From assembly GCA_015654535.1 (NCBI GenBank), contig JAATGU010000118.1, forward strand, positions 1 through 64,000: a stretch of 64,000 nucleotides of DNA. The letters run 5' to 3'. Below, in pieces: positions 3,083 to 39,289 of this stretch. How positions within the stretch are numbered: the stretch's first letter is position 1; the number at the start of each line of letters is the position of its first letter. The translations under genes were made by a program, and so were the position numbers. This DNA comes from Bacteroidales bacterium (GTDB lineage Bacteria; Bacteroidota; Bacteroidia; Bacteroidales; Bacteroidaceae). Below the pieces are notes generated by a model. The model was not told the DNA's origin and ran no database searches. It saw only the letters and a program-made list of their open reading frames with translations.

Positions 3083-6000
3083 TTAATGATCAATCTTTTT
3101 CTTCCCAGATATTCTAGCCAATAGGTTTTCTACTATAAGATACATGCTTGGCACCACAAATAGTGTCAGGATCATAGAACTGGTGAGACCTCCTATGATC
3201 ACCCAGGCCATACCGTTCTTTATTTCAGATGCAGCACCGCCCGCCATGGCAATGGGTAGCATTCCGAAGATCATGGCAAGGGTCGTCATCAAAATTGGGC
3301 GCAGCCTCTCTTTCCCGGCCTCCACAAGGGCTTCTTTTACACCGTAACCTTCCTCCTTTAGCTTATTGGTGAAGTCCACGATTAGAATTGCGTTTTTTGC
3401 CACAAGCCCAAGCAACATAATCATCCCGATAATAGTAAAAATATTGAGCGTTTCCATCGTTAATGCCAAGGCCAATAGCGCCCCGACAAGGGCTACGGGT
3501 ATTGAAAACAGCACAACGAAAGGATATACAGCGTTTTCGTACAGCGCCACCATGATCAGATAAACCAGAATGATAGCAGTTATAAATGCTAGTCCCAAGC
3601 TGCCGAAAGCATCACCCTGATTTTTAGAATCACCGAGATACTCTATACTGATACCATTTGGGACCTTGATAGATTGAGCTTTTGCCTTAATCTCATCACT
3701 GACCGTGCCTGTGGGTCTGCCTATCACATTAGCTTGTACGGTAATTGAACCCATGCGGTCTATCCGTTGAAGGGTAGTTTCTCCAAGGGTTTCGGTCACC
3801 TCTGCAAACTGGTTCAGCAATACCGTCTGTCCTTCGGAGTTGACAAAGGGCAGATTACCCACGTTTTTAATATCCGAGCGGTTAAATTTATCCAGACTGA
3901 CCAAAATATTGTACTCATTACCATCCTGTTTAAACTGGCTTTTATCATTCCCGCTAAATGCATTCTGAAGGATAACTCCCACCTGGCTGACATTAAGTCC
4001 CAAAAGGCTCATTTTTTCCCGATTCAGCTTTATATCTATTTCAGGTTTTCTATCCTTAACGGATAATTTCACAAATTGTGTGCCCGCTATTCCCGTTATC
4101 ATTTTCTGGTATACTTCGGCAACCTGGCGTACCTCTTTAAGGTTCAGTCCTTTTACAGCAATCTGTATGGGAGCACTACTCACATTCCCTGTTATGGAAG
4201 TGGACGATGCGGTAAATTTGACTCCCGTAATAACATTACTGAGTTTTTTCTGTATAAGAGAACCTAATTCTTCGGCTGTCAAACTACGGTTTTTCTTATC
4301 CACCAGGGTCAGGGTGAGTTCCGCAAGGTTAGCATTGCTGCTGGTACCGGAAACATTTCCGCTCACAAAGCCGACACTGGAAAATACCTTTTCGACTTCA
4401 GGCTGTTCCAGAATGATCTTTTCAGCCTGTTGTACAAGCATATTGGTCTTGTAAATGGTCGCCGTGGGCTCCAGCTCCATATTAATAATCAAATCGCTCT
4501 GGTCTGTTTTCGGGATAAATGCCGCACCGATAAACCCAGTAGGAATAAGGATTATGGCTCCGATGATCAAAAACAATGCACCCAACAAAAGCCATCTCTT
4601 CCTATTGAGTACTTTCTGCAATATTTTTCCATAGTCCTCTTTTACGATATTTATAAAACGCTCGAATCCCAGATTGACCTTTCCCCAGAAGGTATTGTTC
4701 TTCAAATGCTCTAATTTACCAAACCGGCTGGCAAGGACAGGGGTAACAGTAAAAGAAACAAAAAGACTCATCAGGGTTGAAAATACAACTACCAGTGAAA
4801 ACTCGCGGAGTATAGATCCGATCATTCCCCCGGTCAGCGCCAGCGGAAGGAATACCACCACATCTACCGAGGTGATGGAAAGAGCCGTAAATCCAATTTC
4901 ATTGCGGCCTTCAAGGGCCGCCTTCCGTTTATCCGATCCCTTTTCCATATGCCGGTAGATATTCTCCAATACGACAATGGAGTCGTCCACCAAAATACCC
5001 ACGACCAATGACATAGCCATCAGGGTCATCAGATTTAGTGAAAGCCCTAAGACATACATGGCAATGAAAGTAGGGATAATAGACGAAGGCAATGCTAGCA
5101 GTACGAACATCGAACTTCTCATGCTATGCAGGAAAGCCAGCATGACAAAACCAACGATAATAATGGCCAGCACAAGGTCTATCATTACCGCATCTGCCGC
5201 ATGGAGCGTATATACACTTTGGTCGGAAGATATATTGAATTTCAGGTTCTGCAATTTATATTGTTCTTCAATAGAGGCGAAGGCTTTTTTGACCAGCCGG
5301 CTGACATCAACGGCATTAGCATCGCTTTGCTTGATGATCTGTACGCCGATAGAGGGAATGCCGTTAATATGGTTGATGGCTGTCGTTTTCGCTGTAGCAT
5401 CGACTACTTCGGCAATATCGCGCAGATAGATAACCCCTTGTCTGGGATGTTGCAGTATGACAAGGTTACGTAATTGTTCCAGTGAATTCACATTGGCATC
5501 GTAACGGATAGAAAGCTGCTGGTTTTTCGTTTCGATACTACCCGCAGGGAAAGACAAGTTTGCGTTATTGACCGCCTGTGTGACCTGCGCAATGGAAAGC
5601 CCGAAAGAAAGTAACTTTTGCTGATTTATATTGATTTGAATCTCTCGTTCATCACCACCAATGATATTTACCTGCCCCACACCAGATACATTTTGCAATA
5701 CCGGTCTGAGTTGGTTATCTACAAGGTCGTACAGGTTACGAGGAGCCATTTTGGCGGTTACCCCCGCCTTGATAACGGGCGTTTCTTCCAAATTCACTTT
5801 ATTTACCTGCGGCCTTTCGGCGTTATCCGGAAGGTCATTCATCGCCTGGTCCGCCTTACGCTGTACGTCGCGTTCAGCCTTATCTATGTCAGTACCACTT
5901 TTAAAGGATATGGTGATGATCGAAACGCTTTCCTGCGAAGTGGAAGTGATCTGGTCAAGTCCCTCTACTGAAGAAAATGCATCTTCCAACTTTTTGGTGA

Positions 6001-6187
6001 CGGTGGTTTGTACCTCTGCTGCAGAGGCACCCGAATAAAGGGTACTCACGGAAACAGTCGGCACTTCTATCTTGGGAAGCAGGTTATAATTCAGGCTTAG
6101 ATACGACTGTATCCCGAAAAGGATCAGTACCGTAAATATGACGATAAGCAACAATGGCCTTTTAATGACAATTCCGGTTAATGACAT
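3083..6187 (-). CDS. RND multidrug efflux transporter, AcrB/HAE1-like
   Basis: Inner-membrane proton-driven pump subunit of a tripartite exporter. At 1034 residues it has full AcrB length. The N-terminus (SLTGIVIKRPLLLIVIFTVLI) is the first membrane helix, followed by a large periplasmic porter domain. The proton-relay pair DD lies in VVGILVDDSIVVLENIYRH (TM4, about residue 400) and the relay Lys in GLVAKNAILIVDF (TM10, about residue 929). Both halves of the internal duplication are intact. It is the last gene of an operon with a membrane-fusion protein and an outer-membrane factor. Substrates may be drugs, bile acids or detergents and cannot be predicted. The GC content looks higher by eye than in the panB region and beyond, which may mean separate ancestry. 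Confidence 0.93.
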   Translation of the reverse strand: MSLTGIVIKRPLLLIVIFTVLILFGIQSYLSLNYNLLPKIEVPTVSVSTLYSGASAAEVQTTVTKKLEDAFSSVEGLDQITSTSQESVSIITISFKSGTDIDKAERDVQRKADQAMNDLPDNAERPQVNKVNLEETPVIKAGVTAKMAPRNLYDLVDNQLRPVLQNVSGVGQVNIIGGDEREIQININQQKLLSFGLSIAQVTQAVNNANLSFPAGSIETKNQQLSIRYDANVNSLEQLRNLVILQHPRQGVIYLRDIAEVVDATAKTTAINHINGIPSIGVQIIKQSDANAVDVSRLVKKAFASIEEQYKLQNLKFNISSDQSVYTLHAADAVMIDLVLAIIIVGFVMLAFLHSMRSSMFVLLALPSSIIPTFIAMYVLGLSLNLMTLMAMSLVVGILVDDSIVVLENIYRHMEKGSDKRKAALEGRNEIGFTALSITSVDVVVFLPLALTGGMIGSILREFSLVVVFSTLMSLFVSFTVTPVLASRFGKLEHLKNNTFWGKVNLGFERFINIVKEDYGKILQKVLNRKRWLLLGALFLIIGAIILIPTGFIGAAFIPKTDQSDLIINMELEPTATIYKTNMLVQQAEKIILEQPEVEKVFSSVGFVSGNVSGTSSNANLAELTLTLVDKKNRSLTAEELGSLIQKKLSNVITGVKFTASSTSITGNVSSAPIQIAVKGLNLKEVRQVAEVYQKMITGIAGTQFVKLSVKDRKPEIDIKLNREKMSLLGLNVSQVGVILQNAFSGNDKSQFKQDGNEYNILVSLDKFNRSDIKNVGNLPFVNSEGQTVLLNQFAEVTETLGETTLQRIDRMGSITVQANVIGRPTGTVSDEIKAKAQSIKVPNGISIEYLGDSKNQGDAFGSLGLAFITAIILVYLIMVALYENAVYPFVVLFSIPVALVGALLALALTMETLNIFTIIGMIMLLGLVAKNAILIVDFTNKLKEEGYGVKEALVEAGKERLRPILMTTLAMIFGMLPIAMAGGAASEIKNGMAWVIIGGLTSSMILTLFVVPSMYLIVENLLARISGKKKIDH

Positions 6188-8934: not shown

Positions 8935-9270
8935 TCACTTGGTAACCTCCTCGAAATGCTCCTGTGCCCAGTTAATCATCATCTGTACGGCAGGCATAAG
9001 GCTTTTACCCATTTCCGTAATAGAATATTCTACACGTGGAGGAATTTCTGCATAGGCTTCCCTTTTTATCAAATGATATTTTTCTAAATTCTTTAACGCA
9101 TTAGTTAACATCTTCTGTGAGATGTCAGGAATAGCATTCTTTATCTCACCATAACGCATTATTTTATCAGGAAATAGTGTGCATAATACTAATAACGACC
9201 ATTTATCACTAAATCGGCTAAGTACATTCCTGATGGGACAAGTAGGGTGTTATAAATCTAATTCTTCCAT
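8935..9270 (-). pseudogene. HxlR-family regulator, inactivated by nonsense codon 7
   Basis: This is the counterpart of the intact hxlR at 12871-13206. From the homologous ATG at 9270 it reads M-E-E-L-D-L and then TAA at 9250-9252, where the intact copy has CAA (Gln). The rest of the frame, including the conserved CPIR and DKWSLLVL segments and the wing, stays open to the normal stop. Starting at the internal ATG at 9159 would give 74 residues without the sensor Cys and the first helices, so activity as a regulator is doubtful. Its promoter (9293-9323) is intact. The gene lies at the left boundary of a small accessory island. The nonsense codon is seen directly; loss of function is inferred. 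Confidence 0.8.
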
Positions 9271-9510: not shown

Positions 9511-10158
9511 ATGAAAGTGGCAGTAATTGGAACCGGAAATGTAGCACAGGCTTTGATAAACGGATTAATCAGCGAAGGTTATGATGTCAAAGTGGGTTCA
9601 CGCAATTCAGGAAAAGACAGTGAGAATATTACTAAACTTAAGGAAGCACATAGTAATGTCAGCATCACAAGTTATGTTAAGGCTGTAGAATTTGGAGATA
9701 TTGTGGTATTACCCATTCCCGGTGCATCTTTGGTAGATGTAATACAGGAAATCGGAGTTCAGAAATTCGAGGGAAAAATACTTTGGGATATTACCAATGC
9801 TTTTTCGGCAGATGCGCCTGCTAACGGAGTCATCAAATTAATAACAACTCCGGATGAATCACTCGCTGAAAAAGTTCAGAAACTACTTCCTTCAACCCAT
9901 GTTGTTAAGGCAATGAATACGGTAGGTGCACACCTGATGTACAAACCTGTCTTTGGTGAAAACGGGACAATCTTTCTTGCCGGGAACGACGGTTATGCAA
10001 AAGAAAGAATTTCAGAAATTGCTAAAAAATTCGGATGGGAATCTTATGATGCAGGAAAGATTGAATCTTCACGTGCATTAGAATACATGGGGCAACTATA
10101 TGTTGCACAAGGTATTCTTTACAATGGATGGAGTAGCACATTCAAATATGTGAAATAA
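9511..10158 (+). CDS. NAD(P)-binding reductase, F420H2:NADP oxidoreductase-like
   Basis: A 215-residue Rossmann-fold protein. It opens with MKVAVIGTGNVAQALINGL, a classical dinucleotide-binding GxGxxA loop, and the KVGSRN that ends the second strand suggests NADP preference. It belongs to the family annotated as NADPH-dependent F420 reductase or NADP oxidoreductase, also found in bacteria without F420. There the electron partner is unknown and may be another flavin or quinone. It is transcribed away from the broken hxlR copy, across an operator-like motif. HxlR proteins often control neighbouring oxidoreductases, which fits. The substrate cannot be named. Confidence 0.82.
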   Translation: MKVAVIGTGNVAQALINGLISEGYDVKVGSRNSGKDSENITKLKEAHSNVSITSYVKAVEFGDIVVLPIPGASLVDVIQEIGVQKFEGKILWDITNAFSADAPANGVIKLITTPDESLAEKVQKLLPSTHVVKAMNTVGAHLMYKPVFGENGTIFLAGNDGYAKERISEIAKKFGWESYDAGKIESSRALEYMGQLYVAQGILYNGWSSTFKYVK

Positions 10159-11750: not shown

Positions 11751-11854
11751 CACATACGCACATGACTGCCTCCTTAAAAGATGATTCGGTGAAAATCTTA
11801 TTCCTTTTTTACCTTTTCCAATTAATTATTTCAATAGAAATTAATATTAAAAAG

Positions 11855-12673
11855 ATGTCAACCTATACAGAAGATAAAAGAAAAGTCACAACTCATAGAC
11901 TTTTAGAAATGAAACAACGTGGAGAAAAAATATCCATGCTTACAGCCTATGATTATTCAATGGCTAAGATAATAGATGAAGCTGGAATCGATTCTATTCT
12001 AGTGGGCGATTCAGCTTCCAATACAATGGTGGGTAACGCAACAACTCTGCCAATGACACTTGACCAAATGATATATCATGCCCGTTCGGTAGTCAATGGA
12101 GCAAAAAGAGCACTAGTTGTAGTTGATATGCCTTTTGGTACATGTTCTGGAAATCCAAGACAATCATTAGAAGCAGCTATTCGCATAATGCAAAAAACGG
12201 GAGCTGATGCACTTAAAATTGAAGGAGGACAAGAAATACGAGAAGACGTAAAAAAGATAATTAATGCAGGAATACCTGTAATGTCACATTTAGGTTTAAT
12301 GCCACAATCAATTAATAAATACGGAACTTATACAGTTAGAGCAAAAGAAGAGAAAGAAGCACAAAAACTTGTTGATGACTGTTTGCTGATGGAAGAACTC
12401 GGATGCTTTGCAATAACTTTAGAAAAGATTCCTGCAACACTTGCATCTGAAATCACACAAAAAGTAAAAATACCTGTAATTGGTATCGGGGCAGGTTCAG
12501 GTGTTGACGGTCAGGTGTTAGTGATACATGATATGATGGGTATAAACAAAGATTTTTCCCCTAAATTTTTACGACGATATGCTGATTTACATGCTATAAT
12601 GACAGTAGCAACTCAAAATTATATTCGAGATGTAAAAGAGAGCGATTTTCCCAATAAATCAGAAAGCTATTAA
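11855..12673 (+). CDS. panB: Ketopantoate hydroxymethyltransferase (PanB)
   Basis: Makes ketopantoate from 2-ketoisovalerate and methylene-tetrahydrofolate, the first step of pantothenate (coenzyme A) synthesis, in the cytoplasm. From the ATG at 11855 (MSTYTEDKRKV) it is 272 residues, the family length; an upstream ATG at 11762 would add a hydrophobic 31-residue extension that PanB proteins lack. Landmarks are ISMLTAYDYSMAKIIDEAGIDSILVGDS (Mg-binding Asp), VVVDMPFG, ADALKIEGG, the catalytic Glu in ITLEKIPATLA, and IPVIGIGAGSGVDGQVLV. No panC or panD is nearby, so the gene is isolated from its pathway. It is AT-rich and lies inside the island between the hxlR repeats. Confidence 0.92.
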   Translation: MSTYTEDKRKVTTHRLLEMKQRGEKISMLTAYDYSMAKIIDEAGIDSILVGDSASNTMVGNATTLPMTLDQMIYHARSVVNGAKRALVVVDMPFGTCSGNPRQSLEAAIRIMQKTGADALKIEGGQEIREDVKKIINAGIPVMSHLGLMPQSINKYGTYTVRAKEEKEAQKLVDDCLLMEELGCFAITLEKIPATLASEITQKVKIPVIGIGAGSGVDGQVLVIHDMMGINKDFSPKFLRRYADLHAIMTVATQNYIRDVKESDFPNKSESY

Positions 12674-12800
12674 TTTATAACATGGGAACAATGTGGATGA
12701 AAAACAAATGTGCAGCATAAATGATAAGCATAAAAAAAAGAAGAGGGCACTTCCATCTTTTCCCCCATTGTTAGAATTGCGCCCTTAATTATGAAATCCC

Positions 12801-12825
12801 CGAATAATCCTCTAAAAATTATTCG
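12801..12825. terminator. Hairpin downstream of panB
   Basis: CGAATAAT (12801-12808) pairs with ATTATTCG (12818-12825) across a nine-base loop. It lies between the convergent ends of panB and hxlR copy B. There is no strong U-run, so terminator function is only plausible. Confidence 0.35.
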
Positions 12826-12870
12826 AGAATAGGATAAAAATAAATCGGGGCAAATGACCTTATATGAATA

Positions 12871-13206
12871 TCACTTGGTAACCTCATCGAAATGCTCCTC
12901 CGCCCAGTTAATCATCATCTGTACGGCAGGCATAAGGCTTTTACCCATTTCCGTAATAGAATATTCTACACGTGGAGGAATTTCTGCATAGGCTTCCCTC
13001 TTTATCAAATGATATTTTTCTAAATTCTTTAACGCATTAGTTAACATCTTCTGTGAGATGTCAGGAATAGCATTCTTTATCTCACCATAACGCATTGTTT
13101 TATCAGGAAACAGTGTACATAATACTAATAACGACCATTTATCACTAAATCGGCTAAGTACATTCCTGATAGGGCAAGTAGGGTATTGTAAATCTAATTC
13201 TTTCAT
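12871..13206 (-). CDS. HxlR-family transcriptional regulator (intact copy)
   Basis: Winged-helix regulator of 111 residues, the usual HxlR length. It starts MKELDLQYPTCPIRNVLSRFSDKW; the Cys in CPIR is the position that senses electrophiles or disulfide stress in characterised relatives. The recognition helix region is PDISQKMLTNALKNLEKYHLI and the wing is REAYAEIPPRVEYSITEMG. It is divergent from the repeat-peptide/radical SAM cassette with 219 bp between the start codons, and its own promoter and the shared operator-like motif lie there. It probably represses or activates both itself and the cassette; that is inference from layout and family. Confidence 0.92.
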   Translation of the reverse strand: MKELDLQYPTCPIRNVLSRFSDKWSLLVLCTLFPDKTMRYGEIKNAIPDISQKMLTNALKNLEKYHLIKREAYAEIPPRVEYSITEMGKSLMPAVQMMINWAEEHFDEVTK

Positions 13207-13228
13207 TGTTTTTAATCATATTTTCAGG

Positions 13229-13259
13229 CAAATATACTATACTCTCTAAAAAGATGCAA
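13229..13259 (-). promoter_or_regulatory. Promoter of hxlR copy B
   Basis: On the minus strand: TTG (complement of 13257-13259), 20 bases, TATATTTG (complement of 13229-13236). Identical in layout to copy A. Confidence 0.6.
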
Positions 13260-13327
13260 CTTTAAAAAGGATTATTATTTTCTATAAGTTAAAGCTGGTT
13301 AAAGTAGTAATTATCAATATATTGATA

Positions 13328-13342
13328 ATCAGTATTACTAAC
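13328..13342. promoter_or_regulatory. Operator-like motif (copy B)
   Basis: Plus strand ATCAGTATTACTAAC, one base different from copy A and from the motif at the 38.9-kb hxlR gene. It lies 24 bases upstream of the -33 box of the peptide promoter. Confidence 0.45.
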
Positions 13343-13365
13343 CTTATTGGTTCGTAATAAACCCA

Positions 13366-13398
13366 TTTGTTTTACTCTTAGTATTGCTATTATATTTG
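13366..13398 (+). promoter_or_regulatory. Promoter of the repeat-peptide cassette
   Basis: TTTG at 13366-13369, 21 bases, TATATTTG at 13391-13398: a near-perfect Bacteroides promoter, starting just after the end of duplicated copy B. Transcription would begin about 20 bases before the peptide start codon. Confidence 0.65.
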
Positions 13399-13425
13399 TT
13401 CAATATTTTGTATAACTAATTAAAA

Positions 13426-13722
13426 ATGAAGATCATGAGTAAATTAAATTTCTTGAATGGATGGACAGGCGTTAGCAAGTATTTTTCACGCCACAGTGCC
13501 CAAAGCTATATGGGTACTAATCAGCTTGCATTTGCTGCATCAAACGGTGGTTCATCATGTGGGTCGGACGATGATAGTAAACCTCAACCTTCTGCATGTG
13601 GTGCAGGGGATGATGAAAAACAAAATCCTCCGGCTTCTGCGTGCGGAGCAGGGGATGACACTCCACAAACACAAAAACCTTCTTCATGTGGTTCAGGCTG
13701 CGGAGCAGGAGATGGCAAGTAA
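13426..13722 (+). CDS. Candidate RiPP precursor with Cys-Gly-x-Gly-Asp-Asp repeats (ACGX type)
   Basis: A 98-residue peptide (or 95 from the ATG at 13435) with a conventional N-terminal leader (~residues 1-42: NFLNGWTGVSKYFSRHSAQ) and a low-complexity C-terminal core. The core has five Cys at 45, 58, 73, 88 and 92, each followed by Gly: SCGSDDD, ACGAGDD, ACGAGDD, SCGSG, CGAGDG. Pro/Gln/Lys/Ser linkers give a period of 13-15 residues. No signal peptide. The gene is 69 bp ahead of a radical SAM/SPASM enzyme, the arrangement of ribosomally made, radical-SAM-modified peptides. As I recall, TIGRFAMs names an 'ACGX-repeat peptide' family with a partner radical SAM enzyme; this fits, but I could not check it. 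The modification and biological role are unknown. Confidence 0.8.
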   Translation: MKIMSKLNFLNGWTGVSKYFSRHSAQSYMGTNQLAFAASNGGSSCGSDDDSKPQPSACGAGDDEKQNPPASACGAGDDTPQTQKPSSCGSGCGAGDGK

Positions 13723-13729
13723 TAATCAA

Positions 13730-13762
13730 AATCATCCCGATAGATTAACTGTCGGGATGATT
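13730..13762 (+). promoter_or_regulatory. RNA hairpin between peptide and radical SAM genes
   Basis: AATCATCCCGA (13730-13740) pairs perfectly with TCGGGATGATT (13752-13762), an 11-bp stem with an 11-base loop. No U-run follows, so it is not a standard terminator. Such hairpins between a precursor gene and its enzyme gene usually protect the 5' mRNA or reduce read-through so that peptide exceeds enzyme. The stem is seen; the role is inferred. Confidence 0.6.
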
Positions 13763-13791
13763 CAATCAATCAATGTTTTTAATGATATAAG

Positions 13792-14817
13792 ATGGAATAC
13801 TTTGCATTTCAATGGCATATAACAGACAGTTGTGACCAGCGTTGCCTACACTGTTACATATTTTCAGAAAACATTCATTTCAAGGTAAAAGAAATGTCTT
13901 GGGCTGAGATTGAATCGGTTTTTGGCAATTGTATGGATATGTGTCAAAAAGCAAACCGTATCCCATATTTTTATATTACAGGTGGCGATCCCATACTGCA
14001 TAGCCGTTTCTGGGATTTAATGGAGCTTTTCAAAAATAACAATATCACATTCACAATACTTGGTAATCCTTTTCATCTAACTGACGAGGTTTGTCACAGA
14101 TTGAAGGATTGTGGTTGTGAGAGATACCAGCTTTCCATAGATGGTTTGCGCGAAACTCATGACGCTATGCGTAAACAGGGTTCATTCGATACGACATTGG
14201 AAAAAATAAAAGTGCTTCGGGATGCCGGAATACGCTGTGCCATTATGACGACTGTTTCTGGAACAAACGCACATGAAATTCCCAGTATCATAGACCTTGT
14301 TGTAGAACATAAAGCTGATGTTTTTGCTTTTGCCCGCTATTGTCCCACAAGCCTTGAAAAAAGCACCCACCTTACGCCTGAGCAGTACAAGAAACTACTG
14401 GAGATCTGTTGGCAGAAATTTGAACAGTATAAAGATAGCAAAACAAACTTCAATTTAAAAGACCATTTATGGACTCTTTTCCTTTACGAGAAAGGCTTAT
14501 TCCGGATACCGGAAGGCCTGAACCAAAATATGATATATGAGGGCTGTAACTGTGCAAACTGCCATATGACAATATTGCCAAAAGGTGATGTATATGCCTG
14601 CCGGCGATTGGAAAGTAATGTCGGCAATGTATTCGCAGAAAAGCTATTTGACATATTCACAGGAGATCGTATGAATTATTTCAGGGATTATGACAAATTT
14701 GAAAAATGTTCGAAATGTGAACTGAAGCGTTTTTGCCGTGGCTGCCCGGCAGTAGCATATGGCTATACAAGGAATTTTTATGCGGCCGATCCACAATGTT
14801 GGAAACAAATCAGTTAA
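13792..14817 (+). CDS. Radical SAM/SPASM peptide-modifying enzyme
   Basis: 341 residues. The N-terminus carries the radical SAM cluster motif CDQRCLHC (C14, C18, C21) that binds the 4Fe-4S and SAM, followed by the GGDP motif (YFITGGDPI-like, YYITGGDPILH region). The C-terminus is a SPASM domain for auxiliary Fe-S clusters: C-x12-C with GDVYAC, then CSKCELKRFCRGC and a last Cys in DPQCW. A CNCANC cluster adds further Cys. SPASM proteins beside Cys-rich peptide genes install thioether or similar crosslinks. The upstream repeat peptide is the likely substrate, perhaps at its Cys residues. Fits the ACGX-system maturase as remembered. It starts 69 bp after the peptide and ends 12 bp before the next enzyme. 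Confidence 0.88.
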   Translation: MEYFAFQWHITDSCDQRCLHCYIFSENIHFKVKEMSWAEIESVFGNCMDMCQKANRIPYFYITGGDPILHSRFWDLMELFKNNNITFTILGNPFHLTDEVCHRLKDCGCERYQLSIDGLRETHDAMRKQGSFDTTLEKIKVLRDAGIRCAIMTTVSGTNAHEIPSIIDLVVEHKADVFAFARYCPTSLEKSTHLTPEQYKKLLEICWQKFEQYKDSKTNFNLKDHLWTLFLYEKGLFRIPEGLNQNMIYEGCNCANCHMTILPKGDVYACRRLESNVGNVFAEKLFDIFTGDRMNYFRDYDKFEKCSKCELKRFCRGCPAVAYGYTRNFYAADPQCWKQIS

Positions 14818-14829
14818 TAAGTATATAAT

Positions 14830-15801
14830 ATGAAAGCAGTCGTATTATATAAAACTGGGAAACCGGAAGTTCTTACAGTTAGTGATATTCCTATACCGAA
14901 AGTAAAACCAGGTTGGGTACTTGTAAAAGTAAAATCCTTCGGCATAAACCGCTCCGAATTAATGATGCGTGGATTTGAAGGCGATGCGCCCTATATTCAA
15001 TTGCCCCGGATCATAGGTATAGATTGTGCCGGAATAGTGACTGAACCTTCCGATAGCGGATTAAGAAAAGGTCAAATGGTAGTTGCCCTGATGGGTGGCA
15101 TGGGACGCAGCTTTGACGGGAGCTATGCCGAATATGCATTATTACCTGCAAAAAATATCTTTCCTGTTGATACAGATTTAAGTTGGGAAGAACTCGGGGC
15201 TATACCGGAAACTTATTTCACGGCTTATGGCTCGTTATCCGATTGTCTGCAAATAACCTATGGAGATACATTGCTGATCAGAGGTGGTACGAGTGCTGCC
15301 GGATTAACAGCCATACAAATCGCCAAAAGCATCGGTGCTACTGTATTGGCTTCAACAAGAAAAGAAAGCAAGGCTGAGTTCTTGAAATCACAGGGTGCTG
15401 ACCATGTACTGATTGATAATGGCGCTTTAACTGAACAACTATACAGACTTTATCCCCATGGTATAGATAAGATACTCGAGCTTATCGGTGCATCCACATT
15501 ATTGGAATCTCTAAAACTTGCCGCTTATCATGGTATAGTCTGCCATACCGGAATGTTGGGTAAAAAAGGAACTCTCGATGGTTTCGATCCGATAAAGGAT
15601 ATACCCAACGGGGTGTATCTTACCGGATTTTTCAGTAACTATCCAACGCAACAAGCCATAGATGCCATATTCAAACTGATAAAGGAAAAGAACCTGCATC
15701 CGGTCATTGCAAATGTATTTTCGTTAAATGAAATAGCTGAGGCGCACGAACTGGCAGAAAATAACGAAGCGAATGGAAAAATAGTTGTCAAAATAGAATA
15801 A
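14830..15801 (+). CDS. Quinone oxidoreductase-like medium-chain dehydrogenase
   Basis: 323 residues of the zinc-independent quinone oxidoreductase branch of the medium-chain dehydrogenases. The N-terminal GroES-like domain (MKAVVLYKTGKPEVLTVSDIPIP, VKSFGINRSELMMRGF) lacks the zinc ligands. The Rossmann part has LLIRGGTSAAGLTAIQIAKSIGATVLAST, an NADPH-binding loop. It follows the radical SAM gene by 12 bp, so it is probably co-transcribed. It could supply or remove reducing equivalents for the peptide system, or be a separate HxlR-regulated detoxifying enzyme like those beside other hxlR genes. I cannot distinguish these from sequence. Confidence 0.86.
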   Translation: MKAVVLYKTGKPEVLTVSDIPIPKVKPGWVLVKVKSFGINRSELMMRGFEGDAPYIQLPRIIGIDCAGIVTEPSDSGLRKGQMVVALMGGMGRSFDGSYAEYALLPAKNIFPVDTDLSWEELGAIPETYFTAYGSLSDCLQITYGDTLLIRGGTSAAGLTAIQIAKSIGATVLASTRKESKAEFLKSQGADHVLIDNGALTEQLYRLYPHGIDKILELIGASTLLESLKLAAYHGIVCHTGMLGKKGTLDGFDPIKDIPNGVYLTGFFSNYPTQQAIDAIFKLIKEKNLHPVIANVFSLNEIAEAHELAENNEANGKIVVKIE

Positions 15802-16088
15802 TAATACCCGTTAGAGGGATTAATCAAACGCATATTTGACTCTTCCAGAAAATCACGTTGATATTCTGCCTCCAATTTATTAAAAAGATAATTCTCACCA
15901 TCTATACTCAGCGATTCAGAAGTAAAACTTAAGACGATTACTCCTAAATCTGAGCTAAATTGCTTGTATATATCAAATGTTTTATCGAATATTGTCTTCA
16001 AATTGTGCATATCGGTACTATATTTTAGTTGTTTGGGCACTACTAAAATACTAAAAGCTAATGATATGTGTGGCTTTTTATCAATCAT
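15802..16088 (-). pseudogene. Truncated gene of unknown function (5' fragment)
   Basis: From an ATG at 16088 the minus strand reads a well-composed protein (MIDKKPHISLAFSILVVPKQ, then FDIYKQFSSDLGVIVLSFTSE and NKLEAEYQRDFLEES) for about 95 codons. The frame then runs into the antisense of the quinone oxidoreductase, where the composition becomes shadow-like. It looks like the 5' part of a gene cut off where the peptide cassette ends, marking an island boundary. No family recognised. It could also be a small intact gene whose 3' end overlaps the convergent neighbour. Confidence 0.4.
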
Positions 16089-16136
16089 TTTCTTACAATT
16101 CTAATTCCTCCAACGGATTATGTTTATAATTTTTTA

Positions 16137-16144
16137 TATCTTTG
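16137..16144 (+). promoter_or_regulatory. -7 element upstream of PNPOx gene
   Basis: TATCTTTG fits TAnnTTTG and lies 40 bases ahead of the ATG at 16184. Its last TTG has been read as a start codon (16142) of a longer frame, which this element makes unlikely. Confidence 0.45.
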
Positions 16145-16183
16145 ATCATTAATTTACGACTTTGGAAAATAGACAAAAGAAAT

Positions 16184-16669
16184 ATGCAAAAATATCATCT
16201 ACAGAATAGACCTAATCGCGAAATCTCAGAAAAAGCTGAGATTGCAGAAATATTGAAAAAAGGGAGATATACTGTAATTTCAATGTGTCGCAACAACGAA
16301 CCTTACATCGTCACTCTGAGCTATGGCTATGATCATGAGAATAATTCATTATATTTTCACTGCTCAACTCAGGGATTAAAGCTTGATTTTATAAATGAAA
16401 ATCCTCAAGTTTGTGCTACAGTAATAGAAGATGGTGGATATATTATTAATGAATGCGGACATAATTACCGGACAGCCGTTTTTTGGGGTAAAATAGAGAT
16501 TGTAACTGATTTAAATGAAAAGAAACATGGGATGACAGTCTTATTAAATCATCTTGAAAATCAACCAATAATCATAAAAGAAAAGTTGTTAAAATCAGAT
16601 GACTTGTACTCAAAAATGGTAATATTAAGACTCAACATTACTCAGATTCATGGAAAAGCTGGAAGGTAA
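16184..16669 (+). CDS. Pyridoxamine 5'-phosphate oxidase-family flavoprotein, NimA-like
   Basis: 161 residues from ATG 16184 (MQKYHLQNRPNREIS). The split-barrel FMN-binding fold of this family is visible: EIAEILKKGRYTVISMCRNNEPYIVTLSYGYDHENNSLYFHCSTQG, then KLDFINENPQVCATVIEDGG and the closing strand with VILRLNITQIHGKAG. Relatives include Nim proteins, which reduce nitroimidazoles, and many uncharacterised small flavin- or heme-binding enzymes. The TTG at 16142 is part of the promoter, so the shorter start is preferred. A MazG-like gene follows after 50 bp. Confidence 0.82.
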   Translation: MQKYHLQNRPNREISEKAEIAEILKKGRYTVISMCRNNEPYIVTLSYGYDHENNSLYFHCSTQGLKLDFINENPQVCATVIEDGGYIINECGHNYRTAVFWGKIEIVTDLNEKKHGMTVLLNHLENQPIIIKEKLLKSDDLYSKMVILRLNITQIHGKAGR

Positions 16670-38211: not shown

Positions 38212-38736
38212 TTACTTTGTTACATAACTCACATAATTCATAGCAGCTTCTTTAAGAGTTTCCTCAGAAGGATTGCCTAAAGCACCATGAAATATATAGG
38301 CTGATTCAAATTTTGAATGAGTATAATTGGCTGTCGCAACAATGGTCTGCGTTAGTCCTTTTGATGTTATGGCATTTTTATCGCTTTCAGCATAAGCCTC
38401 TGCAATTCCACCTGTAGAAATAGCCAAGCCAATTTCTTTTCCTTCAAGTTTATCCCCACCAGGACCATAACACCATCCATAAGCATAAACTTCATCAAAC
38501 CATTTCTTCATTAATGGAGGCATATTATACCAATATATAGGATATTGGAAAATAATCCGGTCATGACTCTCTAATAATGCCTGCTCTGCTTTCACATCAA
38601 TCTTCCAATCCGGATAAGCCACATAGATATTATGCACTGTGATATCTTTATTTTCTTTGGGAAGTATTTCAATCCACGATTTATTAATCACTGACAGCGC
38701 AATATCAGGATGAGCTAAAAGAATAAGAGTCTTCAT
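38212..38736 (-). CDS. NAD(P)H-dependent oxidoreductase, flavodoxin fold (KefF/MdaB-like)
   Basis: 174 residues. MKTLILLAHPDIALSVINKSW is the FMN phosphate-binding start of the flavodoxin_2 family, and IIFQYPIYWYNMPPLMKKWFDEVYAYGWCYG is its characteristic centre. Such enzymes reduce quinones or other electrophiles by two electrons, and some regulate Kef potassium efflux. It diverges from an HxlR-family gene with 178 bp between the starts, a classical regulator/target layout. Expression is likely induced by electrophilic or oxidative stress. Confidence 0.9.
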   Translation of the reverse strand: MKTLILLAHPDIALSVINKSWIEILPKENKDITVHNIYVAYPDWKIDVKAEQALLESHDRIIFQYPIYWYNMPPLMKKWFDEVYAYGWCYGPGGDKLEGKEIGLAISTGGIAEAYAESDKNAITSKGLTQTIVATANYTHSKFESAYIFHGALGNPSEETLKEAAMNYVSYVTK

Positions 38737-38751
38737 ACTTTCTATGTTTTA

Positions 38752-38781
38752 TTGTTTATTTAAAATAATTGGTTACTTTTG
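38752..38781 (+). promoter_or_regulatory. Promoter reading toward hxlR (38915)
   Basis: TTG at 38752-38754, 19 bases, TActTTTG at 38774-38781. It would give a leader of about 125 bases containing further GTTACT/AGTAAC-like half-sites and the shared 15-mer. Confidence 0.4.
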
Positions 38782-38887
38782 CAACATTAATATCTATTAT
38801 ATATATTAGTAACTTTTCGAGAGCAAAGGAAGATAAAAATGAAATATAAAACAAGAAGGCACATTTAAGAAACATAGTTACTCAAAT

Positions 38888-38902
38888 GTTAGTAATGCTG
38901 AT
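38888..38902. promoter_or_regulatory. Operator-like motif (third hxlR locus)
   Basis: GTTAGTAATGCTGAT, identical to the complement of 9392-9406 and one base from 13328-13342. It ends 12 bases before the hxlR start codon. A related ATTAGTAAC lies at 38805-38813. Confidence 0.5.
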
Positions 38903-38914
38903 AATAAAAAGCTT

Positions 38915-39289
38915 ATGGATAAAAAAAACTTGGAAAAATTTTCAGATAGTTCCCATTGCCCTATTCGCCATGTACTTGATCGCTTTGGCGATAAATGGTC
39001 TATACTTGTACTTGAGCTACTTAATGAAGGAGGGATTCTGAGATTTAATGAAATCAGTAAAAATATAGGCGATATATCTCAAAAAATGCTGACTGTCACT
39101 CTACGTTCACTGGAAGCCGACAGTTTGATTTCAAGAAAGATATACCCAGAAGTACCACCTCGCGTAGAATATAGTTTAACTAATCTTGGAAGAACGTTAC
39201 TCCCTCACATTGATGGTCTTGCATCATGGGCATATGAAAACATGTCCACTATAATAAAAAACAGGGAAAAGTACCAGCAAAGAAAATAA
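38915..39289 (+). CDS. HxlR-family transcriptional regulator
   Basis: 124 residues. HCPIRHVLDRFGDKWSILVLELL gives the sensor Cys and first helix; IGDISQKMLTVTLRSLEADSLI is the recognition-helix region; ISRKIYPEVPPRVEYSLTNLG is the wing. It shares its recognition segment (DISQKMLT) with the HxlR at 12871, which fits the shared operator-like 15-mer. Divergent from the flavodoxin-fold oxidoreductase it probably controls. Confidence 0.92.
   Translation: MDKKNLEKFSDSSHCPIRHVLDRFGDKWSILVLELLNEGGILRFNEISKNIGDISQKMLTVTLRSLEADSLISRKIYPEVPPRVEYSLTNLGRTLLPHIDGLASWAYENMSTIIKNREKYQQRK

Follow-up and report, generated by a model that had tools for sequence, protein, structure and literature searches.

The DNA considered here is a stretch of 64,000 nucleotides from a Bacteroidales bacterium (contig JAATGU010000118.1 of assembly GCA_015654535.1), called the window below, and its subject is a cassette of four genes in which a divergent regulator of the HxlR family precedes a Cys-Gly repeat peptide, a radical SAM/SPASM enzyme and a quinone-oxidoreductase-like (QOR) enzyme (Table 1). 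The last three genes all lie on the + strand between 13426 and 15801, with gaps of 69 bp between peptide and enzyme and 12 bp between enzyme and QOR. A first-pass annotation, made from the letters of the window, had placed these genes correctly, including the intact and divergent HxlR gene and the close spacing on one strand. The peptide and the radical SAM/SPASM enzyme almost certainly form a pair like those that yield ribosomally synthesized and post-translationally modified peptides (RiPPs). It is further proposed, tentatively and at a little short of an even chance, that the cassette is an HxlR-controlled RiPP-like system in which the Cys of each Ala/Ser-Cys-Gly would be converted to a 5-thiooxazole or a similar group, giving a cytoplasmic polymer that acts as a soft nucleophile or binds metals.

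Table 1. Features of the cassette, its control elements and the related control region in the window
Positions	Strand	Feature	Score or remark
12871-13206	-	HxlR/DUF24-family regulator, intact, 111 aa, conserved Cys11-Pro12	PF01638, 106.9 bits
13310-13329	unstranded	Perfect 20-bp palindrome, possible second operator	Absent from the 14 other intergenic regions printed
13338-13363	+	Operator-like element CTAACCTTATTGGTTCGTAATAAACC	Common to the window's closest Bacteroidota ACGX loci
13366-13398	+	Bacteroidota-type promoter-like sequence TTTG-N21-TATATTTG	
13426-13722	+	acgA-type ACGX-repeat peptide, 98 aa, SAQSY-type leader block and five Cys-Gly units	
13730-13762	+	Hairpin with 14-bp stem between the peptide and radical SAM genes	-22.3 kcal/mol, z -5.87
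13792-14817	+	acgM-type radical SAM/SPASM enzyme, 341 aa, CDQRCLHC and SPASM Cys set	TIGR04340
14830-15801	+	MDR-family quinone-oxidoreductase-like enzyme, 323 aa	PF08240/PF00107
8890-9434		Near-copy of hxlR and its control region, before another oxidoreductase gene	95.6% over 545 bp of 12826-13370

The pair of peptide and enzyme is already known by its NCBI name, acgA/acgM, and the earlier suggestion that it resembles the ACGX peptide and maturase families of TIGRFAM/NCBIfam was borne out by searches with hidden Markov models (HMMs). The enzyme, whose radical SAM and SPASM Cys motifs are present as described, scored 588.9 bits against TIGR04340 (cut-off 400), and the window peptide scored 27.7 bits against TIGR04341 when submitted alone and 29.1 bits together with its frame neighbours (cut-off 28). 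TIGR04341 matched 46 of the 53 precursors submitted, from a total of about 84 peptides, at E <= 0.01. The true start of the window peptide is probably at 13435 (Met4; 95 aa), because near relatives open at the equivalent of Met4 (MSKLN...). Its Cys-Gly units stand at C45, C58, C73, C88 and C92, with spacings of 13, 15, 15 and 4, so that the five units first reported are all there and the rhythm of 13-15 residues holds for four of them; the fifth departs from it and pairs with the fourth as C-x3-C. The CGxGDD form that had been ascribed to each unit is exact in two of the five.

In a scan of genome contigs 460 relatives of the enzyme were confirmed, and the best 80 of these, together with the window and eight of nine Bacillota loci, make up the 89 loci on which the neighbourhood counts are based. 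The ninth Bacillota locus (L128) was left out of these counts when its orientation by motif failed; L126 duplicates L024 and stayed in the counts, and L004-L007 were excluded because they are closely related to the window or repeat a locus already named. A Cys-Gly repeat peptide was found upstream of the enzyme in 84 of the 85 loci with at least 600 bp of upstream sequence, 81 of them automatically within 1.4 kb and three (L017, L039 and L053) by eye; in L025 no such peptide was found in the 646 bp upstream. Under a uniform 700-bp rule the peptide accompanied the radical SAM gene in 73 of 77 cases, as compared with 3 of 392 for other genes (at least 200 aa) of the same loci. The peptide is under strong purifying selection, with a median ratio of nonsynonymous to synonymous substitution (dN/dS) of 0.037 and dN smaller than dS in all 44 pairs with an estimable dS, out of 61 close pairs that are not independent of one another. 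The core Cys is followed by Gly in 447 of 454 instances, and Ala or Ser precedes 426 of the 447 Cys-Gly units, figures that include two non-core units from L029 and L034, which were read from too early a start. In L034 (6712-7920) a Sir2-like frame, named by eye, continues stop-free into that of the ACGX peptide, which could mean a fusion or starts that overlap. Selenocysteine in ACGX peptides was considered and rejected after L025 and L034 had been inspected with their stops shown: the L034 peptide is an ordinary one whose frame continues from the Sir2-like gene, and L025 showed none.

The prediction of the enzyme's chemistry starts from its kinship with SbtM. The next-best NCBIfam models for the window enzyme were SbtM (TIGR04082) at 172.5 bits, below its cut-off of 350, and AhbD at 133.5 bits; a sequence search of the PDB at 1e-10 returned only SkfB (55.9 bits) and the "Radical SAM" entry 5v1q (47.6 bits), both too distant to name a chemistry. 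SbtM was matched in 27 of 297 genomes and 25 loci were collected. Trees of 55 rows were computed from 22 ACGX enzymes (of 81 loci), 13 SbtM (of the 25), 5 AhbD and 15 others, leaving out L098, L144, L150 and L156; seven of the other radical SAM rows are long-branched, and so only the joining of ACGX with SbtM is used. These two families lie on one side of a branch supported at 100/99 in the careful tree and at SH-aLRT 95 in the quick one, and the residues F4, Q7, D15, C51, P93, M152, R271 and S275 are each shared by no fewer than 90% of the rows of either family and are missing from all 20 other SPASM rows. Peptides with [S/G]-[U/C]-G units, putative substrates of SbtM, were seen by eye nearby in 11 of the 25 SbtM loci, and two of them carry a C-x3-C pair, GCGxSCG.

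The SbtM family forms thio(seleno)oxazoles, and SbtM assayed alone removes four hydrogens from a Cys substrate, turning the Cys into a thiooxazole, according to the available part of PMC11002830. According to PMC12668002, the O2-using MNIO enzymes make 5-thiooxazole from Cys-Gly repeats, and 5-thiooxazole peptides show an absorbance near 305 nm, which modified SbtMa has too; they also become alkylated on treatment with iodoacetamide and they bind copper. The kinship with SbtM and this literature together lead to a predicted change of -4 Da for each Ala/Ser-Cys-Gly, and by this analogy thiooxazole-type chemistry at each such unit is given an even chance.

The first-pass annotation had seen in each Cys-Gly-x-Gly-Asp-Asp unit the acceptor of a Cys-based crosslink, and this points to the main rival explanation, a ranthipeptide-type product in which the Cys sulfur would be linked to the beta or gamma carbon of Asp or Glu (C-x3-D/E) to form a string of small thioether rings. 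The crosslink has real grounds in most of the family, with Asp or Glu at +4 in 217 of the 285 Cys-Gly units not followed by Cys at +4, and PapB is described in the available part of PMC9413430 as linking C-x3-D on PapA, accepting Glu and tolerating a spacing of 0-6 residues. The +4 acid is missing from the four methanogen peptides of the set, where it stands at that place in 0 of 29 units and is found at +3 instead. Against rings of this kind there are also the 162 of 447 units with Cys at +4, the seven peptides that end in ACGAK without an acceptor, and the fact that Cys-Gly, and not the acid, is the invariant part of the repeat. The enzyme itself scored only 56.4 bits with the PapB model NF047865, below the cut-off of 340, as compared with its much higher score for SbtM. 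Thioether rings are therefore regarded as rather unlikely, and conversion of the Cys to a thiooxazole is preferred.

The regulator, too, is a general companion of the pair. Among the 89 loci, 74 have an HxlR gene in the available flank, which reaches up to 8 kb, and the gene is divergent within 2.3 kb in 51 of the 77 with enough upstream sequence. In a set of 81 loci, 52 have it upstream in divergent orientation, and where it is co-directional it lies downstream in 7 and upstream in 7. Cys11-Pro12 is kept by every one of the 64 linked HxlR proteins long enough to include it, which fits the control by redox or electrophile stress that had been suggested at first sight. In the DUF24 regulators HypR, YodB and CatR an N-terminal Cys serves to detect HOCl, quinones and diamide, and the azoreductase AzoR1 and the nitroreductase YodC belong to regulons of this type (available part of PMC6943732). 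By analogy, HxlR redox control of the cassette is judged highly probable. HxlR matches number only four in the host genome, and three of these are inside the window; both of the other window genes adjoin redox genes. The hxlR copy (8935-9270) has a stop at codon 7 of its frame and precedes an F420_oxidored-type gene (9511-10158), and the third HxlR gene (38915-39289) is divergent from a Flavodoxin_2-type oxidoreductase gene (region 38212-39289), which makes a further pairing of regulator with reductase.

The promoter claimed for the cassette was recovered as a promoter-like sequence of Bacteroidota type, just behind the operator-like element. The core of that element, TAACC-N5-GGT, is present in 12 of 13 window-like hxlR-acgA regions, which are the window's closest loci and not Bacteroidota at large, and its distance from the start codon hardly varies among them; in Markov shuffles it turned up on average in 0.018 of 13 regions and in 1 at most. 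A promoter-like pair TT(T)G/TAnnTTTG follows the core in 11 of the 13 regions (10 of 12 besides the window). A pattern derived from the operator has two sites in the window's own genome (13338-13363 and 9402-9427), and the reversed pattern has none. Another element, ending in GTGC(C/G)TACTT-like letters, is common to 10 of 50 regions, from Bacillota, Planctomycetota, Spirochaetota and Thermodesulfobacteriota, although this Clostridium-type pattern was written after viewing the sequences and is descriptive. The operator-like site lies upstream of the -33 element, a position that suits activation, as with HypR or B. subtilis HxlR, and for this reason HxlR is taken as a putative activator in the scheme below.

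A strong hairpin recurs between the peptide and radical SAM genes: of the 52 loci tested, 45 gave z < -2 there (median -4.2), and as controls the stretch upstream of the peptide did so in 7 of 51 and a stretch inside the enzyme gene in 5 of 52. The 52 were drawn from 81 loci, 18 others having gaps below 40 nt, 5 gaps above 260 nt and 6 no automatically found peptide. The letters of the stem vary between groups, and among the methanogens L057, L070 and L077 are without a hairpin and L074 has one. The stem counter includes some long multi-part helices, and its stem lengths were not used. A T run (at least 4 T within 12 nt) follows only 12 of the 45 stems counted; a strict terminator was ruled out on this ground, and processing, 3'-end protection and leaky termination are therefore all possible, each of which would keep the peptide above the enzyme. 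No known RNA element was found at Rfam gathering scores in 12600-16200.

An oxidoreductase gene stands directly 3' of the radical SAM gene in 78 of 82 loci, as QOR in 46, nitroreductase in 28 and PNPOx/4Fe-4S protein in 4. The peptide, the radical SAM enzyme and an NAD(P)H or flavin oxidoreductase make up a single unit of gene order with a linked HxlR regulator. The exceptions are L022, L035, L042 and L054, and the last two have a QOR or nitroreductase gene 1-2 kb further on. When the host and 60 relatives were searched, the radical SAM enzyme and QOR marked the same 6 of 61 genomes, five by HMM and the sixth, G008, with its QOR at a contig edge and the tail of the radical SAM gene in front; QOR at E 1e-40 was found in none of the other 55. 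Twenty of 35 methanogen matches were examined, several of them repeating genomes already counted (L057, L070, L074 and L077): QOR was present in 20 of 20, the peptide in 19 (the remaining one has only 85 bp upstream) and HxlR in 11, within a short flank.

This tight linkage could be read in two other ways. In the first, the modified peptide would be a redox carrier comparable to mycofactocin or pyrroloquinoline quinone, shuttling electrons for the adjacent oxidoreductase as its dedicated partner, and the shared occurrence of QOR and radical SAM genes, along with a linkage to NAD(P)H/flavin oxidoreductases that persists as the family switches, speaks for it. Each peptide has several Cys units, however, and no cofactor-releasing peptidase is among the recurring neighbours, and the exchange of the partner for one of unrelated fold better suits a common outcome, detoxification, than a docking partner; a carrier is considered improbable. 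In the second, the oxidoreductase would be a tailoring enzyme that oxidizes or reduces modified residues, so that the product needs all three genes. In other RiPPs azoles are completed by dehydrogenases of the nitroreductase fold, and some lanthipeptides have their dehydro residues reduced by MDR enzymes; both these roles and the position directly behind the radical SAM gene are in keeping with tailoring. The label of the partner nevertheless changes between QOR and nitroreductase 11 times on the radical SAM tree, at least 6 of these changes being forced by supported branches, and SbtM needed no helper for the loss of four hydrogens in the assays cited above (PMC11002830, in its available part). 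Tailoring is thus thought no more probable than the carrier, and an oxidoreductase that works alongside the putative thiooxazole peptide is preferred to both.

Recurring neighbours were annotated where a cluster occurred in at least 4 loci, with clusters 7, 17, 19 and 22 (antisense or precursor-like reading frames) unused. Among 81 loci they comprise macrodomain (11), PNPOx/4Fe-4S (11), beta-helix (8) and ThuA-like (7) proteins, cupin, ABM, AraC regulator and ABC transporter (6 each), carboxylesterase (5), and PanB, DUF5131, DUF1848, rhamnosidase and hexapeptide transferase (4 each). No MNIO (DUF692) enzyme and no peptidase is among them, and the sole transporter cluster, the ABC one, lies 3-6 kb from the cassette on either strand without a fixed place, which agrees with the earlier remark that the cassette has no dedicated peptidase or transporter. 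A secreted antimicrobial or signalling RiPP has general precedent among radical SAM peptides, and those six ABC transporters might be counted in its favour. The absence of a recurring peptidase or immunity gene from the annotated neighbours, the loose placing of the transporter, the strong purifying selection on the peptide and the redox type of the regulator make it very improbable, and the antimicrobial form was rejected on the first two of these grounds. With export genes in no fixed position, the product is most simply seen as a putative scavenger or buffer in the cytoplasm.

Several neighbours are of interest in themselves. A macrodomain gene follows the cassette in a subset of loci (L028, L013, L016, L072 and others), together with Sir2 and DUF1848 genes in L197. 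In the annotation of a Roseburia plasmid the pair is named acgA/acgM, with a divergent helix-turn-helix protein before it and genes for a nitroreductase, a 4Fe-4S protein, an ADP-ribose hydrolase, Sir2 and DUF1848 behind it. The macrodomain and Sir2 neighbours link the cassette to ADP-ribosylation stress operons, and both the macrodomain genes and the macrodomain-Sir2 combination of Roseburia fit a stress operon. Just past the window cassette lies a NimABCDEF-like protein of the PNPOx family (16184-16669; 58.1 bits, cut-off 260), which is outside all the listed neighbour clusters. The panB gene for ketopantoate hydroxymethyltransferase of the CoA pathway is at 11762-12673, and panB is found less than 4 kb from the cassette, on either side, in the window and in L010, L012 and L018.

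Put together, the proposed mechanism would begin with electrophile or redox stress acting on HxlR, which as an activator would switch the operon on. In most loci the intercistronic hairpin would keep the peptide transcript above that of the enzyme, and the SbtM-like enzyme would take four hydrogens from each Ala/Ser-Cys-Gly to leave a thiol-bearing 5-thiooxazole. The product is expected to stay in the cytoplasm, because there is no export signal, peptidase or fixed transporter, and to serve as a multivalent soft nucleophile or ligand for capturing electrophiles or soft metals; toxicants of quinone or nitro type would be reduced by the partner enzyme, QOR or nitroreductase. That the product is such a cytoplasmic sponge is plausible and still somewhat doubtful, and binding of metal by the product, already raised in the first-pass annotation, is possible. 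A broader form of the idea is held more loosely: the cassette could represent an oxygen-independent counterpart of the O2-dependent 5-thiooxazole peptides, that is, a genetically encoded, HxlR-induced thiooxazole-thiol polymer that mops up electrophiles or soft metals, has spread horizontally through gut bacteria and methanogens, and has its ratio of peptide to enzyme set by the hairpin in most loci. The hosts of such a polymer may be without glutathione-type thiols.

A number of observations weigh against this proposal. The ACGX and SbtM enzymes share a mean identity of only 29% and the former is without the N-terminal extension of about 195 residues found in SbtM, so their chemistry may differ, and no matches to HxlR, QOR, nitroreductase, PNPOx or macrodomain families were found within about 1.5 kb in any of the 25 SbtM loci, so the physiological roles of the two systems differ. 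The frequent acid at +4 counts here as well, because it is dispensable for a thiooxazole and required for a thioether. On the side of control, the HxlR protein of B. subtilis responds more specifically to aldehydes (PMC6943732, available part), AACC-N5-GGT was missing from the other 37 of the 50 intergenic regions, so that the operator-like element is specific to the window's own group, and the 18 loci with gaps below 40 nt have no room for a hairpin. No metal-transport family is among the annotated recurring neighbours. Literature searches, judged by title and the start of the abstract and reaching few subscription papers, found no paper on the ACGX pair, no experiment on any member and, as the first-pass annotation had it, no described product.

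The distribution of the enzyme is wide and patchy. In genome searches in which the best 4-5 candidates per genome were scored, it was found in 33 of 151 Methanobacteriota genomes (31 above the cut-off) and 9 of 398 Bacillota, in the host's class only in the host's own genome out of 395, and by the search of relatives in 5 of 61. The 80 named loci fall into Bacteroidota (54), Bacillota (15), Methanobacteriota (5) and Thermoplasmatota (2), with one each in Synergistota, Planctomycetota, Spirochaetota and Thermodesulfobacteriota, and their hosts are mostly anaerobes, to go by the taxa, with the exception of Neobacillus (L035). Four plasmid records carry the enzyme, and two of them are versions of one Methanosphaera plasmid, on which the radical SAM gene is annotated as two pieces. 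The tree groups Bacillota, Synergistota and Planctomycetota bins of a single sample series (Nc350). The patchy presence, the plasmids and this grouping across phyla point to horizontal transfer, with the reservation that contigs of metagenome-assembled genomes are open to binning error.

Two loci come from IMG/VR contigs. One of 24 kb, filed as viral (L165), has a complete cassette of peptide, radical SAM enzyme, ABM protein, nitroreductase-like protein and HxlR. The other (L166), a very large viral contig of 504 kb (IMGVR_UViG_3300028886_000026), has a tail-collar gene near the gene at 5001-6026 for an ACGX-family radical SAM enzyme, which scored 480.3 bits (cut-off 400), and has no Cys-Gly repeat peptide in the 11-kb piece; the start of this enzyme resembles an ACGX leader (WKSWTND) by eye. 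It is possibly a phage enzyme that acts on the peptide of its host, and the named phage collection held no match to it.

As far as the literature searched goes, the linkage to HxlR and oxidoreductases, the operator, the hairpin, the kinship with SbtM and the prediction that results from them are new, and the main text of a survey of Bacteroidales RiPPs does not mention ACGX in its available part (PMC10352776). If the proposal is true, radical SAM chemistry gives anaerobes, archaea included, access to the kind of thiol heterocycle for which aerobes use O2, its synthesis comes under redox-type control, and a function and a product can be assigned to an NCBI-named peptide family of Methanobacteriota, Bacteroidota and Bacillota.

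Among known systems the closest is the ACGX system itself (TIGR04341 acgA and TIGR04340 acgM), which the window matches in the peptide repeat, in an enzyme score far above the cut-off and in gene order; the entry names cover the pair only, without HxlR, oxidoreductase, operator, hairpin or the kinship with SbtM. The SbtA/SbtM system (TIGR04082) has a sister enzyme, common signature residues and, in its putative substrates, [A/S/G]-[C/U]-G units, of which ACGX has only the Cys form, and it differs in that ACGX peptides show no selenocysteine, have another leader and another neighbourhood, and have an enzyme with no N-terminal extension. The captophorins, oxazolins and bufferins of MNIO (DUF692) enzymes also have Cys-Gly repeats (EGKCG), 5-thiooxazole, which for ACGX is predicted, and a setting of stress or metal response (PMC12668002, accessible text); MNIO enzymes use O2, whereas ACGX relies on a radical SAM enzyme, and no common ancestry is implied. 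The PapB-type ranthipeptides resemble ACGX in the SPASM radical SAM enzyme, the repeated Cys motifs and the frequent C-x3-D/E, and differ in that the acceptor position is not kept in ACGX, whose enzyme starts 13 residues before its first cluster Cys and therefore has no room for an N-terminal recognition domain. Lastly, QorR belongs to another HxlR/DUF24 quinone module, and HypO is the reductase of HypR. In these stress modules (YodB-AzoR1/YodC, HypR-HypO), as in the ACGX cassette, an HxlR protein with an N-terminal Cys stands beside a quinone or nitro reductase; the ACGX cassette differs in having a maturase-peptide pair between regulator and reductase.

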